Position numbers and translations under genes: made by a program. The notes beneath the pieces are model-generated. The model did not search any database and was not told where the DNA came from. It worked only from the letters and a program-made list of their open reading frames with translations. From Aeromonas rivipollensis (GTDB taxonomy: Bacteria > Pseudomonadota > Gammaproteobacteria > Enterobacterales > Aeromonadaceae): a DNA stretch of 64,000 nucleotides. The stretch lies in contig NZ_CP149130.1 in NCBI RefSeq assembly GCF_037811135.1, positions 3,096,501-3,160,500 on the forward strand, read 5' to 3'. Positions 4,098-44,694 of the stretch are shown here, in pieces; the stretch's first letter is position 1; the number at the start of each line of letters is the position of its first letter.

Positions 4098-5312
4098 ATG
4101 ACTGGCGGACAAATAGCAAACGTAGATCTTATCAAGCAGGTGAACAGTGCCGTCGTCTATCGACTCATTGACCTGCAGGGGCCCATCTCGCGGGTCAAAA
4201 TTGCCGAGTTGAGTCAGCTGGCCCCGGCCAGCGTGACCAAGATAACCCGGCAACTGATCGAGCATGGGCTGATCAGGGAGACGTCGCCCCAGGCGTCAAC
4301 CGGCGGACGACGCGCCATCTCCCTGACCACCATCAAGCATCGCTTTCAGTTTGTCTCCGCCAAGCTTGGCCGCGGCTATCTGCAGCTCTCCCTGTATGAT
4401 CTCGACGGCAAGGAGCTCGATCAGCACATCACCCAGGTGACAGAGATAGAGCAACAGCCCGTGGTCGACATGCTGCTGCGGGAAATTGGCGCCTTCATCG
4501 ACGCCAATACCGAGCGCAGCCGCAACCTCATCAGTGTCGCCCTCACCATGCCGGGCCTGGTCAACCCGGAATCCGGCATGGTCATCTATACCCCCACCTA
4601 CCAGATCCGCAACCTGGGGCTCGCCAAGCTGCTGGAGCACCATTTCAACCTCCCCTGCTACGTGGGCAACGATACCCGTTCCCTGGCGCTGGCCGAGCAC
4701 TTCTTCGGCGAGTCCCGCGACTGCATGGACTCCATCCTGGTGAGCGTCCACCAGGGCACCGGCTCCGGCATCATCACCAAGGGGCAGGTATTCCTCGGTC
4801 ATAACCGCAACGTCGGCGAGATAGGCCACATCCAGGTCGAGCCCCTCGGCAAGCGCTGCCACTGCGGCAACTTCGGCTGCCTCGAGACCATCGCCTCCAA
4901 CGAGGCCATCGTCGACAAGGTGAAGGAGCTCATCAGCCGCGGCCACCTGAGCTCGCTGCAGGAGAAGCACATCACCATCCAGGAGGTGTGCAAGGCCGCC
5001 GTGGCCGGTGACGAACTGGCCCGCAGCGTGATCGAGAACGTGGGAGAACACCTGGGCCGGGCCATCGCCATCACGGTCAACCTGTTCAACCCTCAGAAGG
5101 TGCTGATCGCCGGCGAAATCACCGCCGCCGAGGAGATACTGATCCCGGCCATCCGTCGCTGCGTCGAGCACCAGTCCCTGCCGAGCTTCCACCGTGGCCT
5201 GCCCATCGTGAAGGCGCGCTTCCAGAACCAGCCCACCATAGGCGGCTTCGCCCTGGTGAAGCGCTCCCTGCTGGAAGGGGATCTGCTGCAGATCATCATG
5301 GAGCAGAAGTAA
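4098..5312 (+). CDS. nagC: N-acetylglucosamine repressor NagC (ROK family)
   Basis: 404 residues from the ATG at 4098, which matches the N-terminus of E. coli NagC; the frame is open further upstream but that part overlaps nagA and has no similarity. Residues about 25-75 are the winged helix-turn-helix (SRVKIAELSQLAPASVTKITRQLIE), in two stretches matching NagC. The ROK sugar-binding domain follows, with the zinc-binding CHCGNFGCLE motif. NagC represses nag and chitin genes and is released by GlcNAc-6-P. There is no clear ribosome binding site, which fits translational coupling to nagA 4 bases upstream. Candidate operators lie before nagB and nagE. Confidence 0.95.
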   Translation: MTGGQIANVDLIKQVNSAVVYRLIDLQGPISRVKIAELSQLAPASVTKITRQLIEHGLIRETSPQASTGGRRAISLTTIKHRFQFVSAKLGRGYLQLSLYDLDGKELDQHITQVTEIEQQPVVDMLLREIGAFIDANTERSRNLISVALTMPGLVNPESGMVIYTPTYQIRNLGLAKLLEHHFNLPCYVGNDTRSLALAEHFFGESRDCMDSILVSVHQGTGSGIITKGQVFLGHNRNVGEIGHIQVEPLGKRCHCGNFGCLETIASNEAIVDKVKELISRGHLSSLQEKHITIQEVCKAAVAGDELARSVIENVGEHLGRAIAITVNLFNPQKVLIAGEITAAEEILIPAIRRCVEHQSLPSFHRGLPIVKARFQNQPTIGGFALVKRSLLEGDLLQIIMEQK

Positions 5313-5332
5313 AGGCCCAAGCCTTGGGAAAC

Positions 5333-5362
5333 AAAAACGGCAGCCAGTGGCTGCCGTTTTTT
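5333..5362 (+). terminator. Terminator of nagBAC
   Basis: ACGGCAGCC and GGCTGCCGT form a 9-bp stem with an AGT loop, followed by a T run to 5362. The A run on the left side means it may also work on the minus strand, ending transcription from eptA. The same 9-bp stem recurs at 7337-7357 after yebC. Confidence 0.85.
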
Positions 5363-5381
5363 ATGGTCTGTTTTCGCCGGT

Positions 5382-5486
5382 TTACCCTGCCCTACAGGGC
5401 TTGAACAGGTCAAGCTTGCCGTCATAGACCTGGGTCTGTACGTCCATGATGCCGAGCATGGTGCGGGGAAACAGGTTGTCGCGTTC
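5382..5486 (-). pseudogene. Extra copy of the eptA 3' end (gene-tail remnant)
   Basis: About 100 bases reproduce the last part of the neighbouring eptA gene, including its C-terminal residues CRAG and a stop codon (TAA here, TGA in the intact gene). From the shared ATG-CTC-GGC to the stop the two copies encode the same amino acids. The differences (GTA/GTG, TGT/TGC, AGG/CGG, GCA/GCG) are all synonymous. Just upstream, PRT replaces HS, a one-codon length change. Beyond DNLF towards the 5' side the similarity stops. The copy is in frame with the intact gene, 39 codons after its stop. No start codon or promoter of its own is visible, so it is read as the tail of a lost allele or paralogue. Confidence 0.85.
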
Positions 5487-5498
5487 GGTTAGCCTGAC

Positions 5499-7124
5499 TC
5501 ACCCCGCCCGGCAGGGCTTGAACAGGTCAAGCTTGCCGTCATAGACCTGGGTCTGCACGTCCATGATGCCGAGCATCGAGTGGAACAGGTTGTCGTGGGA
5601 GAAGCGCTTGCTGTCCGCCTCCTGGCGCAGGCAATCCTGATTGAGCCCGCGATCCCGCTGCAGCTGGGGAGAGAACCAGGTCAGCAGGGGCACCCGGGTC
5701 TGATCGTCCGGGGCGAACTTGTAGGGGGTGCCGTGCAGGTAAAGCCCCAGCGCCCCCAGGGATTCCCCGTGATCCGACAGGTAGACCAGCCCCACGTTGT
5801 ACTGGCTCTCCAGGGTCTTGAGCTTGGCGATAAGCTGGGACAGCACCTTGTCGGTATAGCGAATGGTGTTGTCATAGGTGTTGACCAGCTCCTCATTGCT
5901 GCAGTTCTCGATGTCGCTGCGCGGGCAGTCCGGCAGGAAGACACGATCCTCGGCCGGGTAGCGGCGATAGTAGGTCGGGCCATGGCTGCCCATCAGGTGG
6001 AAGGCCACCAGCTTGCTGCCCTGCTTGCCCTTCATCCCGGCGATCTGCCGATCCAGCCCCTGCAGCAAGACCTCGTCATAGCAGGAGTCCCCTTCACAGT
6101 ATTGGGGGAAGGCCTTGGGCTCGATCTCCAGGGTGGGCACGTTATTGCACACCCCCTTGCAGCCGCCGTCGTTCTCCTTCCACAGCACTGAGACACCGGC
6201 GTGTTGCAGCACGTCCAGCAGGCCGTCCCTGGACTTGGCCAGGGTCTCGTCATATTCCCGGCGCGTGAGGTTGGAGAACATGCAGGGCACCGAGACAGCG
6301 GTGGCGGTGCCACAGGAGCGCACGTCCCTGAAGGAGACGAGATCCGGCTCCTTCATGGTGAAGCCGTTGGTCTGCTTCTGGTAGCCGTTGAGGGAGTAGT
6401 TCTGGCTGCGGGCCGTCTCCCCCACCACCAGGAACATCAGGGTCGGCTTGCCGCCCTTGTCCACCACCCTGGCATCTGTGCCTATCGGCTGATAAGGGAC
6501 AGGGGTGGCGAAGAGAATATCCCGGGCGTAGCGATAGAGACCGCGCACGTAGTTGGAGGGGACTATCTCTTTGACGATGGTATGGTTGTTGCGCCCGACC
6601 GAGGCGTAATCCTGGTAATAGAGGGCGGCGACGCCGACCAGGAACAACAGGGAGAGTGCGATCCCCGCCAGACGCTGGGCCAGCCCCTTGTACCAGGGGG
6701 TTGGGTATTCGATCTTCAGCCACAAGAGGCCAAGCACCGGCAGCACGGCGGTCAGCAGGAACCAGAGCACCACTGAACCATTGAGATAGGAGGTCGCCTC
6801 CCCGCTGTTGGTTTCGAGTATGTTCTGCACCATGCCCACATCGAAGATGATCCCGTATTTGAGCATGGCGTAGCTGACCAGAGAGGCCGTCATGATCAGC
6901 AGGATGAAGAAGGGCTTGAGCAGGTAGCGGAAGGTAAACGGCAGGAAGACCGCATTGAGGGCGGCGATCAACACCAGGGGGATAGAGAGGGCAAATCCCG
7001 CCTTCACATGCTCGAGGGCGCTGAGAATACGATAAAAGTGCAGGAAAATGGGCCAGTTGAACACCAGTGCAAACAGCAGCACCAGCAACAGATTGACCTT
7101 CATCACTCCCAGAGTGAGGCGCAT
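5499..7124 (-). CDS. Phosphoethanolamine-lipid A transferase (EptA/MCR-3-like)
   Basis: 541 residues, the length of MCR-3. Five N-terminal membrane helices (about residues 8-170) precede a periplasmic sulfatase-fold domain. Zinc and catalytic residues of the family are present: Glu236 in VVGETARSQN, the phosphate-accepting Thr275 in SCGTATAVSVP, and Asp-His in SDHGESLGALG. The disulfide-rich segment (GGCKGVC, GDSCYDE) also matches MCR proteins. The enzyme adds phosphoethanolamine to lipid A, lowering polymyxin binding. Start chosen at 7124 because GGAG lies 8 bases upstream and the protein then begins at the family's first helix; an upstream extension is possible but unsupported. A PmrA-box match lies 145 bases upstream. 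It resembles the intrinsic Aeromonas eptAv3/eptAv7 genes (mcr-3/mcr-7 relatives); I cannot say which. Confidence 0.9.
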   Translation of the reverse strand: MRLTLGVMKVNLLLVLLFALVFNWPIFLHFYRILSALEHVKAGFALSIPLVLIAALNAVFLPFTFRYLLKPFFILLIMTASLVSYAMLKYGIIFDVGMVQNILETNSGEATSYLNGSVVLWFLLTAVLPVLGLLWLKIEYPTPWYKGLAQRLAGIALSLLFLVGVAALYYQDYASVGRNNHTIVKEIVPSNYVRGLYRYARDILFATPVPYQPIGTDARVVDKGGKPTLMFLVVGETARSQNYSLNGYQKQTNGFTMKEPDLVSFRDVRSCGTATAVSVPCMFSNLTRREYDETLAKSRDGLLDVLQHAGVSVLWKENDGGCKGVCNNVPTLEIEPKAFPQYCEGDSCYDEVLLQGLDRQIAGMKGKQGSKLVAFHLMGSHGPTYYRRYPAEDRVFLPDCPRSDIENCSNEELVNTYDNTIRYTDKVLSQLIAKLKTLESQYNVGLVYLSDHGESLGALGLYLHGTPYKFAPDDQTRVPLLTWFSPQLQRDRGLNQDCLRQEADSKRFSHDNLFHSMLGIMDVQTQVYDGKLDLFKPCRAG

Positions 7125-7268
7125 AAGAAGACTCCGACAAACCAGTGATCTGGAGACCCTGCATGGGGACTCCGTTGTGGGCATCCCTGCCACCCGTCTC
7201 TCTTCCCGAGCAGACAAGGTGGTGATGGGCACAGCGGCCCGGATGCAAGGAAAGAGTAAGAAGGCAAA

Positions 7269-7285
7269 CTTAAGCGGGAATTAAG
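7269..7285 (-). promoter_or_regulatory. PmrA box upstream of eptA
   Basis: On the minus strand the sequence reads CTTAAT-TCCCG-CTTAAG. It fits the published PmrA consensus YTTAAK-N5-YTTAAK at every fixed position. It lies about 145 bases upstream of the eptA start, on the coding strand. Known role: response to polymyxin, iron or low pH through PmrAB. No clear -10 element was fixed. Confidence 0.7.
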
Positions 7286-7330
7286 GAAGGCACAGCGAAG
7301 GAAATGGCGACTGAGAAGAATCAGTGAGAT

Positions 7331-7357
7331 AAAAAAACGGCAGCCTGAGGCTGCCGT
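7331..7357 (-). terminator. Terminator after yebC
   Basis: On the minus strand ACGGCAGCC-TCA-GGCTGCCGT is followed by seven T residues. The stem is identical to that of the nagC terminator at 5337-5360. Confidence 0.85.
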
Positions 7358-7392
7358 CTGGTGTTTATCCCCAGTCAGGGGAGGCTGTGCTG

Positions 7393-7440
7393 TCAGAGCA
7401 GCGCGGCCACTTCGTCGGAGGGAGGTGAGACCGTTGTGGT
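7393..7440 (-). pseudogene. Extra copy of the yebC 3' end (gene-tail remnant)
   Basis: These 48 bases repeat the last 44 bases of yebC (7472-7515). The final residues SDEVAALL and the TGA stop are preserved, with one synonymous change (GCG for GCA). The middle carries a 4-base length difference, so it does not form an open continuation. It sits 79 bases downstream of the true yebC stop, between yebC and its terminator. No expression signals of its own are seen. Confidence 0.75.
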
Positions 7441-7471
7441 GCCCCTCTCTCACACGTGCTCTACCTGGCGA

Positions 7472-8212
7472 TCAGAGCAGTGCGGCCACTTCGTCGGAGA
7501 TGGAGCCGTTGTGGTAGACCTCCTGCACGTCGTCCAGATCTTCCAGCATGTCGATCAGACGCATCAGCTTGGGGGCTGTGTCGGCATCCAGCTCGGCTTC
7601 GGTGGAGGCGATCATGGTCACTTCGGCGCTCTGGGGCTTGAAGCCGGCGGCTTCCAGGCCATCGAGCACTGTGCCGAAATCGTTCGGGGTGGTGTAGACC
7701 TCGATGGAGCCATCCTCTTCGGTAACCACGTCATCGGCACCCGCTTCCAGGGCCGCGTCCATCAGGGCATCTTCGTCCACGCCCACGAAGGTCAGCAGAC
7801 CCTTCTTGCTGAACAGGTAAGCCACCGAGCCGTCGGTGCCCAGGTTGCCGCCGCACTTGCTGAAGGCATGACGCACTTCCGCCACGGTGCGGTTACGGTT
7901 GTCGGTCAGGCACTCTACCATGACGGCGGAGCCCGCCGGGCCGTAACCTTCGTAGACGATGGTCTCGAGCTGCTCGCCATCGCCACCACCGGCGCCGCGC
8001 TGGATGGCACGGTTGATGGTGTCGCGGGTCATGTTGCCGGTCAGGGCAGCCGCTACCGCCGCGCGCAGGCGCGGGTTGTTGGCGGGATCAGCATCACCGA
8101 GGCGAGCCGAGGTGGTGATTTCGCGGATCAGCTTGGTGAAGATCTTGCCACGCTTGGCGTCTTGCGCCGCCTTGCGGTGTTTGATGTTGGCCCATTTGCT
8201 GTGACCTGCCAT
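7472..8212 (-). CDS. yebC: YebC/PmpR family regulatory or translation factor
   Basis: 246 residues beginning with the family signature [21 protein letters not shown] central [19 protein letters not shown] segment and an acidic C-terminal domain follow. Family members bind DNA as regulators, and some have been linked to relief of ribosome stalling; the sequence alone does not decide between these. It lies 68 bases downstream of aspS on the same strand, probably in one operon. Unusually, a second copy of its 3' end lies just downstream. Confidence 0.93.
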
Positions 8213-43438: not shown

Positions 43439-44260
43439 ATGCGCCTCTCCATCACTGCCAAGATCAATTTCTTCCTGCTCTTCATCTTCTCCATGGTATT
43501 GGTGTTTTCCGCGGCCTATCAGGCGGTGCGCGAGCGCGACCTCATCCTGACTCTCATCAAGGAGCAGAGCCGCGAGCAGACCGAGGCCTATTTCGACGGC
43601 CTCAACATGCTGATGCTGACCGGCAAGATGGAGGCCCGCGACACCCTGCGCGCCAAGTTCCTCGACCACGCCCACGTGGAAGATGCCCGCATAGTGCGCG
43701 GGGCTGCGATCAACAAGCAGTACGGGGCGGGCCGCGACAGCGAGGCCCCCAAGGACAGATTCGATGCCCTGGCCCTGGCGGGCAAGGGGAGCCTGGAGGT
43801 GGTGCACGACGGCACCCACAGCAAGCTGGTGGTGACCCGCCCCCTGCTGGCCAAGAAGGACTTTCGTGGCACCGACTGCACCAGCTGTCACCAGGTGCCG
43901 GAGAATACGGTGCTGGGGGCGGTGCGCTTTGACTACTCCCTCGATACCCTCTTTACCCGGGTCGAGCAGAACATCCTCACTTCGGCACTTATTCTCACCG
44001 GTATCTTCGGGCTGGGGCTGCTGCTCACCCTCTGGGTCATCCGCACCTGGATAGTCCGCCCCCTCAACCAGCTGACCCGCTCCATGGAAGAGGCCACCGA
44101 TCTGCACGACTTCGGCCACCGGCTGGAGGGGGATGAAGGGGACGAGATAGGCCGGGTGGCGCTCGCCTACAACCAGATGCTCGACAGCGTGGAGCGCCAG
44201 CTCGGCAAGCGCCCCGCCCCCTCGTCACAGGACGATAAGCCAACGGATCACTCCAGGTAG
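43439..44260 (+). CDS. Periplasmic haem-motif sensor with HAMP domain, no output domain
   Basis: 273 residues. Membrane helix 8-30, a periplasmic domain (about 31-180) resembling the DUF3365/Tll0287-like sensor fold, with a c-type haem motif Cys147-x-x-Cys150-His151 (GTDCTSCHQVP), a second membrane helix about 181-203, and a HAMP domain (RPLNQLTRSMEEATDLHDFG onwards). The chain ends soon after HAMP (SSQDDKPTDHSR), with no kinase, GGDEF or chemotaxis output. It may signal to a partner protein or be a shortened receptor. Its stop codon lies inside a 33-base duplicated segment. Confidence 0.8.
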   Translation: MRLSITAKINFFLLFIFSMVLVFSAAYQAVRERDLILTLIKEQSREQTEAYFDGLNMLMLTGKMEARDTLRAKFLDHAHVEDARIVRGAAINKQYGAGRDSEAPKDRFDALALAGKGSLEVVHDGTHSKLVVTRPLLAKKDFRGTDCTSCHQVPENTVLGAVRFDYSLDTLFTRVEQNILTSALILTGIFGLGLLLTLWVIRTWIVRPLNQLTRSMEEATDLHDFGHRLEGDEGDEIGRVALAYNQMLDSVERQLGKRPAPSSQDDKPTDHSR

Positions 44261-44280
44261 TAAAACAGCAGGCTGGCGGC
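44248..44280 (-). repeat. 33-base extra copy of a gene 3' end
   Basis: The segment repeats the last codons of the adjacent minus-strand gene (44281-44313): both read ASLLFYYLE followed by TGA, with one synonymous difference (CTG for CTA). The copies abut directly, 11 codons apart, in the same frame. On the plus strand the copy supplies the last codons and TAG stop of the HAMP protein. Confidence 0.85.
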
Positions 44281-44694
44281 TCACTCCAGGTAGTAAAATA
44301 GCAGGCTGGCGATCAGGATCAGCAGCAGGATGAAGAGGTTGACATGCAGCGCATCCTCTTGCCGTCGGCTGCGCCTGCGCTCCAGCGCCAAAACCCCCAG
44401 GGTCAGCAGACAGCAACCCCAGAGCCCGTGCACCAGCCAGGGGGTCAGGGCGGGATCCCAGCCCTGACGCACCTTGACCCCGCCATAGACCAGAAAGCCG
44501 TAGGCAATATCGGGGCGGGCATGGTGATAGAGGCCGAGCAGGGCGATGAAGCCGCCCCAGCAGAGGATCACCAGCCCCTGGAGCACCCGTATCCAGCCAT
44601 CCGGCCCCCGCCTGCGTTCCTTCACTCTCACCCCCTGCCCAACCGACCGGATCCATGCAAGATTCATGGGGAAAACCCCGCAAGGGTCCGACAT
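44281..44694 (-). CDS. Small membrane protein of unknown function
   Basis: Up to 137 residues with three predicted membrane helices (about 38-57, 84-103 and 119-136), the loop ARPDIAYGFLVYGGVKVRQG between the first two, and a basic loop (LERRRSRRQED) before the last. No family recognised. The ATG at 44694 lacks a ribosome binding site; the ATG at 44667 (MNLAWIRSVG) is an alternative. Its 3' end is tandemly duplicated just downstream. Confidence 0.65.
   Translation of the reverse strand: MSDPCGVFPMNLAWIRSVGQGVRVKERRRGPDGWIRVLQGLVILCWGGFIALLGLYHHARPDIAYGFLVYGGVKVRQGWDPALTPWLVHGLWGCCLLTLGVLALERRRSRRQEDALHVNLFILLLILIASLLFYYLE

Follow-up and report, generated by a model that had tools for sequence, protein, structure and literature searches.

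A second 3' end after the eptA gene of Aeromonas rivipollensis and tail copies spanning stop codons in the genus

The gene for a phosphoethanolamine--lipid A transferase (here referred to as eptA) in a stretch of 64,000 nucleotides from Aeromonas rivipollensis (the window) is followed by a second copy of its own 3' end. This outer tail is probably the non-coding remnant of an old and short duplication across the stop codon, with concerted evolution and copy turnover. The reading draws on the copy itself, its patchy distribution in the genus, a derived 5' edge shared by outer tails, the similarity of the rest of the copy to the working tail of the same strain, differences in copy number, and an excess of such copies at the 3' ends of Aeromonas genes. 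The eptA gene is not special in this respect. Stop-spanning duplications look abundant and genus-specific in Aeromonas, and this broader pattern is of greater interest than eptA alone. Literature searches gave no description of tail copies in Aeromonas among the papers listed.

The eptA locus and its outer tail

The eptA product passes the curated cut-off of the phosphoethanolamine--lipid A transferase model NF028537 (613.4 bits, cut-off 500). Its best-scoring model is the MCR-7 exception model NF033671, though the 891.6 bits lie below the curated cut-off of 1250, and the score against the EptA equivalog PRK11598 is likewise below its curated cut-off (610.6 bits against 660). The gene order of the locus matches that of the published mcr-7.2 of A. 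caviae, for which an excerpt of the publication gives aspS-yebC-gene-nagC-nagA-nagB (PMC11064524). Terminator-like hairpins resembling each other (ACGGCAGCC..GGCTGCCGT) lie on either side of eptA, at 5337-5362 and 7332-7357; the former is absent from the output of the terminator scan. In eight genomes (G030, G035, G033, G034, G014, G016, G001 and G013; L293-L300) yebC lies on another contig or distant from the nagC-eptA pair, so the adjacency of eptA and yebC is not general in Aeromonas. The features of the locus are listed in Table 1.

Table 1. Coordinates of the eptA locus and of tail copies in the window
Feature	Position	Strand	Remark
Phosphoethanolamine--lipid A transferase gene (eptA)	5499..7124	-	chromosomal relative of MCR-7
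Inner (working) tail, 75 nt	5502..5576	-	ATG to before the TGA stop
Inner stop TGA	5501-5499	-	
Spacer from inner stop to outer copy, 17 nt	5482..5498	-	not recognisably similar to what follows the outer stop
5' edge of the outer copy, 22 nt	5460..5481	-	first 12 nt as in the tail, the remainder derived (+3 nt)
Outer tail copy, 75 nt	5385..5459	-	four silent differences, then TAA at 5384-5382
Terminator-like hairpin between convergent eptA and nagC	5337..5362	.	seen in the sequence
nagC, convergent neighbour	4098..5312	+	
Tail copy after the neighbouring yebC	7393..7457	-	yebC gene at 7472-8212, minus strand
Short tail copy (31 nt) after a small ORF	44248..44278	-	2 nt past the stop of the ORF (44281-44586, minus strand)

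An earlier note on this DNA had described a copy of the last 24 codons of the gene, lying in frame after the stop, with a different stop codon and silent differences only. The copy is real and reaches from 5481 to 5385 on the minus strand, containing the last 25 codons. It is in frame with the inner tail at an offset of 117 nt (39 codons), and the two stops do differ, TGA in the inner and TAA in the outer tail. A profile of the eptA tail recovers the outer copy at E 2.8e-22, and its score of 77 compares with a maximum of 20 in the shuffled-downstream control of 695 gene ends, so that a direct copy adjoins its source well above chance. The claim of silent differences stands for the block of 75 nt from ATG to stop, in which inner and outer tail differ at GTG/GTA, TGC/TGT, CGG/AGG and GCG/GCA. 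It does not hold over the full length, because the copy reaches 22 nt further 5', with a 3-nt insertion and codon changes (HS to PRT); in total, four silent and two non-silent differences were found among the 30 codons compared.

We then compiled the locus from 37 genomes of the genus and extracted 32 loci with eptA beside nagC; in G003, G009, G025, G027 and G029 the pair was not seen within the stretches taken. Full copies were present in 10 of these loci and remnants in two, while none was found in 20 at the score used. One extra tail occurs in nine loci, those of the window strain, A. rivipollensis G78, A. sanarellii, A. piscicola, G015, A. eucrenophila, A. sobria, A. finlandensis and A. 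rivuli, and two extra tails (three tails in total) occur in A. aquatica. Three tails were also found in A. caviae KAM479, which belongs to a separate collection outside the 32 loci, and the short remnants, judged by eye, are those of A. caviae CECT 838 and G010. Copy number thus varies among relatives between one, two and three tails per locus. On the nagC tree the double state requires at least eight changes and shows no clustering, which argues for a high turnover of the double tail. In the single-tailed A. media and A. bivalvium, the sequence after the stop corresponds to that after the outer tail of the window. No extra tail was detected in the scanned paralogous transferase loci, some of which contain two whole genes in tandem.

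A few further observations concern the same loci. In A. rivuli (L035) the inner tail is truncated, and a run of N, either an assembly gap or a withheld stretch, stands between it and the outer copy. Downstream of eptA, past its stop or past the outer tail, A. sanarellii, A. caviae CECT 838, G015, A. dhakensis and one MAG (L007, L008, L011, L031 and L051) carry a REP-like palindrome (GTCCGATTACGCC..GGCTAATCGAAC, with variants). The tail region matched 68 plasmid records, namely 63 of Sinorhizobium, four of Pseudomonas and one of Aeromonas; the 19 Sinorhizobium rows among the best 20 of these matches span just 75 nt of the query. The Aeromonas record, NZ_AP026896.1 (L118), is a circular sequence of 4.94 Mb filed as plasmid pKAM479_3 of A. 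caviae, and is chromosome-like, carrying eptA, yebC and nagC.

Mosaic structure and silent differences of the outer copies

We compared 12 outer copies from 10 strains in two parts, the 5' edge and the 75-nt block, leaving out A. rivuli because of its N; the rows of A. finlandensis, A. rivuli, A. eucrenophila, A. aquatica and copy 2 of A. caviae are shifted or gapped, so that distances are rough and the counts could shift by one or two. The 5' edge is nearer to the outer copy of another strain than to the strain's own inner tail in nine of the 12 copies, with one tie and two exceptions; the exceptions are both copies of A. aquatica, which resemble their own inner tail at the edge too. The 75-nt block is nearer to the strain's own inner tail than to the outer copy of any other strain in eight of 12, the window included, with one tie and three exceptions (G78, A. 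sanarellii and A. finlandensis). By this measure, the copies of one strain resemble each other more than equivalent copies of different strains do. Both features together were found in six of the 12 copies, among them that of the window. Among 13 outer copies, the nearest sequence comes from the same strain in nine, two of which (A. finlandensis and A. rivuli) are on misaligned rows.

The outer 5' edge of the window is closest to that of G78, which is identical to the edge of A. sanarellii, so the shared edge holds across species. Since a derived 5' edge is common to the outer tails of several species, these tails are old relatives and not independent leftovers. Such a mosaic is expected if the central part of an old duplication undergoes exchange. 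Gap columns in 18 copies are also concentrated near the 5' edge (43 of 55 in the second to fourth tenth, in a search that cuts the 3' side of the copies at the stop), a pattern that exchange at the centre of the copies would produce.

Silent changes prevail in the less diverged copies. Eight lightly diverged eptA copies show 29 silent and five non-silent codons, a count in which A. aquatica enters once and from which A. sanarellii, A. finlandensis, A. rivuli and the partly deleted copy 2 of A. caviae are left out; with this last copy added the ratio is 32:9. The copy after an alcohol dehydrogenase gene has 11:1. This excess means that the segments were recently functional sequence. Ten other copies with a score of at least 44 have 47 silent and 35 non-silent differences (p 0.001 against an assumed 40% under drift), or 36:34 (p 0.03) when the alcohol-dehydrogenase copy is removed. 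Over all 23 copies with a score of at least 25 silent changes do not prevail (78:109), and the older copies have therefore drifted.

The states of single sites fit exchange between copies. The pair TGC CGG and TGT AGG stands as inner and outer state in the window strain and as outer and inner state in G78, a swap between two strains that exchange between copies predicts. A glycine codon, GGC or GGT, is strain-specific and has the same state in both copies. Recombination with functional alleles is probably behind the silent differences.

Tail copies at other genes

We searched for copies of the last 120 nt of each gene within 300 nt downstream, at a score of at least 24, with genes taken from a caller based on codon usage. 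In the own genome (the window and 40 further stretches, 864 kb) 18 of 692 gene ends have a tail copy, and in 18 stretches of six other Aeromonas genomes, six of 291. The seven sampled genomes thus give 24 of 983 gene ends, about 1 in 40, compared with three of 944 gene starts (p 5e-5), one of which (L126) reflects an event already counted among the ends. Shuffled controls gave no match. Among 1112 gene ends sampled from 14 other bacterial genomes (189 of E. coli, 509 of three other Aeromonadaceae and 414 of ten further genomes of the order) no tail copy was found; two of the three Aeromonadaceae, with 367 of these ends, have 60% G+C. The genus difference has a Fisher p of 1e-8. Random gene interiors at score 24 show no difference between Aeromonas (7 of 701) and controls (4 of 818), and the Aeromonas excess therefore sits at gene ends. 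Within Aeromonas the contrast between ends and interiors is modest (p 0.04, or 0.01 at score 28). Of 446 intergenic regions of at least 120 nt, 18 contain a repeat that lies entirely within them, namely one of the 129 divergent regions and 17 of the 317 regions where gene ends lie.

The genes concerned are unrelated. Those with a tail copy that scored above NCBIfam cut-offs are rsxD/rnfD, metA, panC, fliH, dsbB and yebC; the alcohol dehydrogenase remains below its model cut-off (547 against 645), and the gene at L126 matched only a permease-domain model. In eight of 23 copies the spacer after the stop is duplicated as well, which shows tandem duplication directly, while in the other 15, eptA included, no recognisable spacer copy is present. 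The in-frame offset is not general, since it was found in eight of 23 copies and the other 15 are shifted; the eptA copies of A. piscicola, A. sobria and G015 also lie in another frame. Read-through to an extended protein as a conserved product is ruled out by these shifted copies.

Presence of the copies also differs among close relatives. A tail copy of rnfD is present in five of 29 readable loci (30 given), those of the window strain, A. popoffii, A. salmonicida, A. veronii and A. rivuli, and is lacking in G78 and A. media. The alcohol dehydrogenase gene has one in six of 30 loci at a score of at least 22, G78 included. The copy after yebC is present in the window strain and A. media and absent from G78. 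As the two A. rivipollensis strains differ at rnfD and yebC, turnover is recent.

Origin of the tail copies and comparison with known systems

On the reading we favour, the first step would be a short duplication spanning the stop codon, which would do no harm, as the copy lies behind the complete gene with its stop. At eptA itself a plain tandem duplication is not demonstrated, because the spacer is unlike the sequence after the outer stop; no duplicated unit including post-stop sequence was found there, and the spacer is not recognisable as a copy of the flank. We infer tandem duplication as the first step at this gene all the same. The central part of the copy, around the stop, would then be overwritten repeatedly by the working tail, or exchanged with it, through homologous recombination within and between strains, while the edges would drift. 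Differences in the middle would remain mainly silent because of this recurrent exchange. Gene conversion would be the homogenising step, as deduced from the patterns in the sequences. The same recombination could expand the array, as in the three-tailed A. aquatica and A. caviae KAM479, and contract it to single tails and remnants. Purifying selection may explain why it is mostly 3' ends that are seen.

The earlier note had taken as the simplest reading that an incoming allele replaced the resident gene and left the resident tail behind, with strains of undisturbed locus expected to match the outer tail better. For eptA this is not the simplest reading, and it fails its own test: the single-tailed A. 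media has six differences from the inner and six from the outer tail, and A. bivalvium six and eight. The note held that replacement would fail if related strains all had the same double tail at equal distance to both copies; G78 is double-tailed, and its inner tail differs at six sites from both tails of the window (its outer tail at four sites from the window's inner and at eight from the window's outer tail). The note was right in that the silent excess is real, and it recurs. A recent foreign eptA body was not seen relative to G78, the body being as similar (93-100% identity per 100 nt) as the flanking genes (91-100%). Identity to A. media per 100 nt is lower for eptA (81-96%) than for nagC (92-99%), and an import at an earlier date is conceivable.

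Through recombination anchored in the gene body, such a replacement would have joined the stop of the incoming allele, with some bases of its flank, to a point midway in the resident tail, and the latter would have persisted. Replacement would account for the silent excess in the eptA and alcohol-dehydrogenase copies, for the greater divergence of eptA than of nagC from A. media, and for an outer flank that is the flank of close single-tailed species, from which the inner stop and spacer differ. At rnfD, moreover, the last 45 nt of the outer copy in the window strain are identical to the one tail that G78 has, and the inner tail differs at two silent sites; the inner allele may have been replaced, or G78 may have lost one of two tails. 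We regard replacement as unlikely, given that both strains of the species have the double tail, that the distances to A. media and to the inner tail of G78 are tied, that the eptA body is not foreign relative to G78, that the derived 5' edge is common to outer tails across species, and that the eight copies with duplicated spacer at other genes are tandem units. An RNA function of the outer copy, for example as a 3' untranslated hairpin protecting or regulating the message, appears very improbable. Some copies do have a hairpin at the 5' edge, such as that at L139:2538-3887 with a stem of 7 bp and z -5.7, and in the yebC copies of several species one can be seen by eye (e.g. GGTGGCA/TGCCACC). 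A paired comparison of the edge with the homologous tail in 26 copies, however, gave stems of 4.6 and 4.8 (p 0.37), with p 0.71 for energy and 0.28 for z, and the covariation of the yebC hairpin across six copies was reached in 136 of 500 shuffles; the new 5'-edge hairpin was therefore dropped as a general signature. No Rfam family reached its gathering score within 5000-7700, and most relatives are without copies. Least probable, and hardly to be expected, is the scar of an attachment site, left by an element that integrated at the gene 3' end and was later lost. Integrative elements at gene 3' ends duplicate that end, and elements are known at such sites. An excerpt of one publication places SGI1 at the 3' end of trmE (PMC8409611). 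No element, however, lies between the tails in the 32 loci, in which the longest stretch between gene and nagC is 571 nt (A. rivuli has its run of N), and a single integrase would not explain the copies because unrelated genes carry unrelated ones.

Returning to duplication with exchange, we tentatively propose a still active process specific to Aeromonas, either a duplication-prone route of replication or repair or an unusual tolerance of its products, that could leave stop-codon-spanning duplications after about 2-3% of genes; the tail copies might then serve as local recombination partners that store silent variants and exchange them with the working gene. If the pattern holds in full genomes, one genus keeps a readable record of short duplications at gene ends, whose birth, gene conversion and loss would be measurable by plain genome comparison. 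The question would then be what differs in Aeromonas replication, repair or recombination from the rest of its family. For annotators and PCR designers, the 3' ends of Aeromonas genes, including one of a colistin-resistance family, may occur two or three times.

Among known systems, tandem partial gene duplication with concerted evolution by gene conversion resembles the tail copies in the adjacent direct copy, the differences in copy number, the similarity within strains and the drift of the edges, but here many unrelated genes have such copies at their stop codons, within one genus and not in the sampled neighbours. With integrative elements in gene 3' ends (trmE, dusA and similar) the gene end also occurs twice and the inner copy works; here, however, no element was found, many different genes are involved and the copy begins just 17 nt past the stop. 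The mcr-3 and mcr-3-like genes repeated in tandem in Aeromonas, as given in an excerpt of PMC8120114, likewise place phosphoethanolamine-transferase sequences side by side, but as two whole genes at another locus, and the scanned paralogous loci showed no extra tail. Finally, palindromic repeats of the REP or GTAG type next to stop codons are likewise short and lie close after genes, according to an excerpt of PMC3733652, but they form dispersed sequence families, whereas here every copy stems from its own gene.
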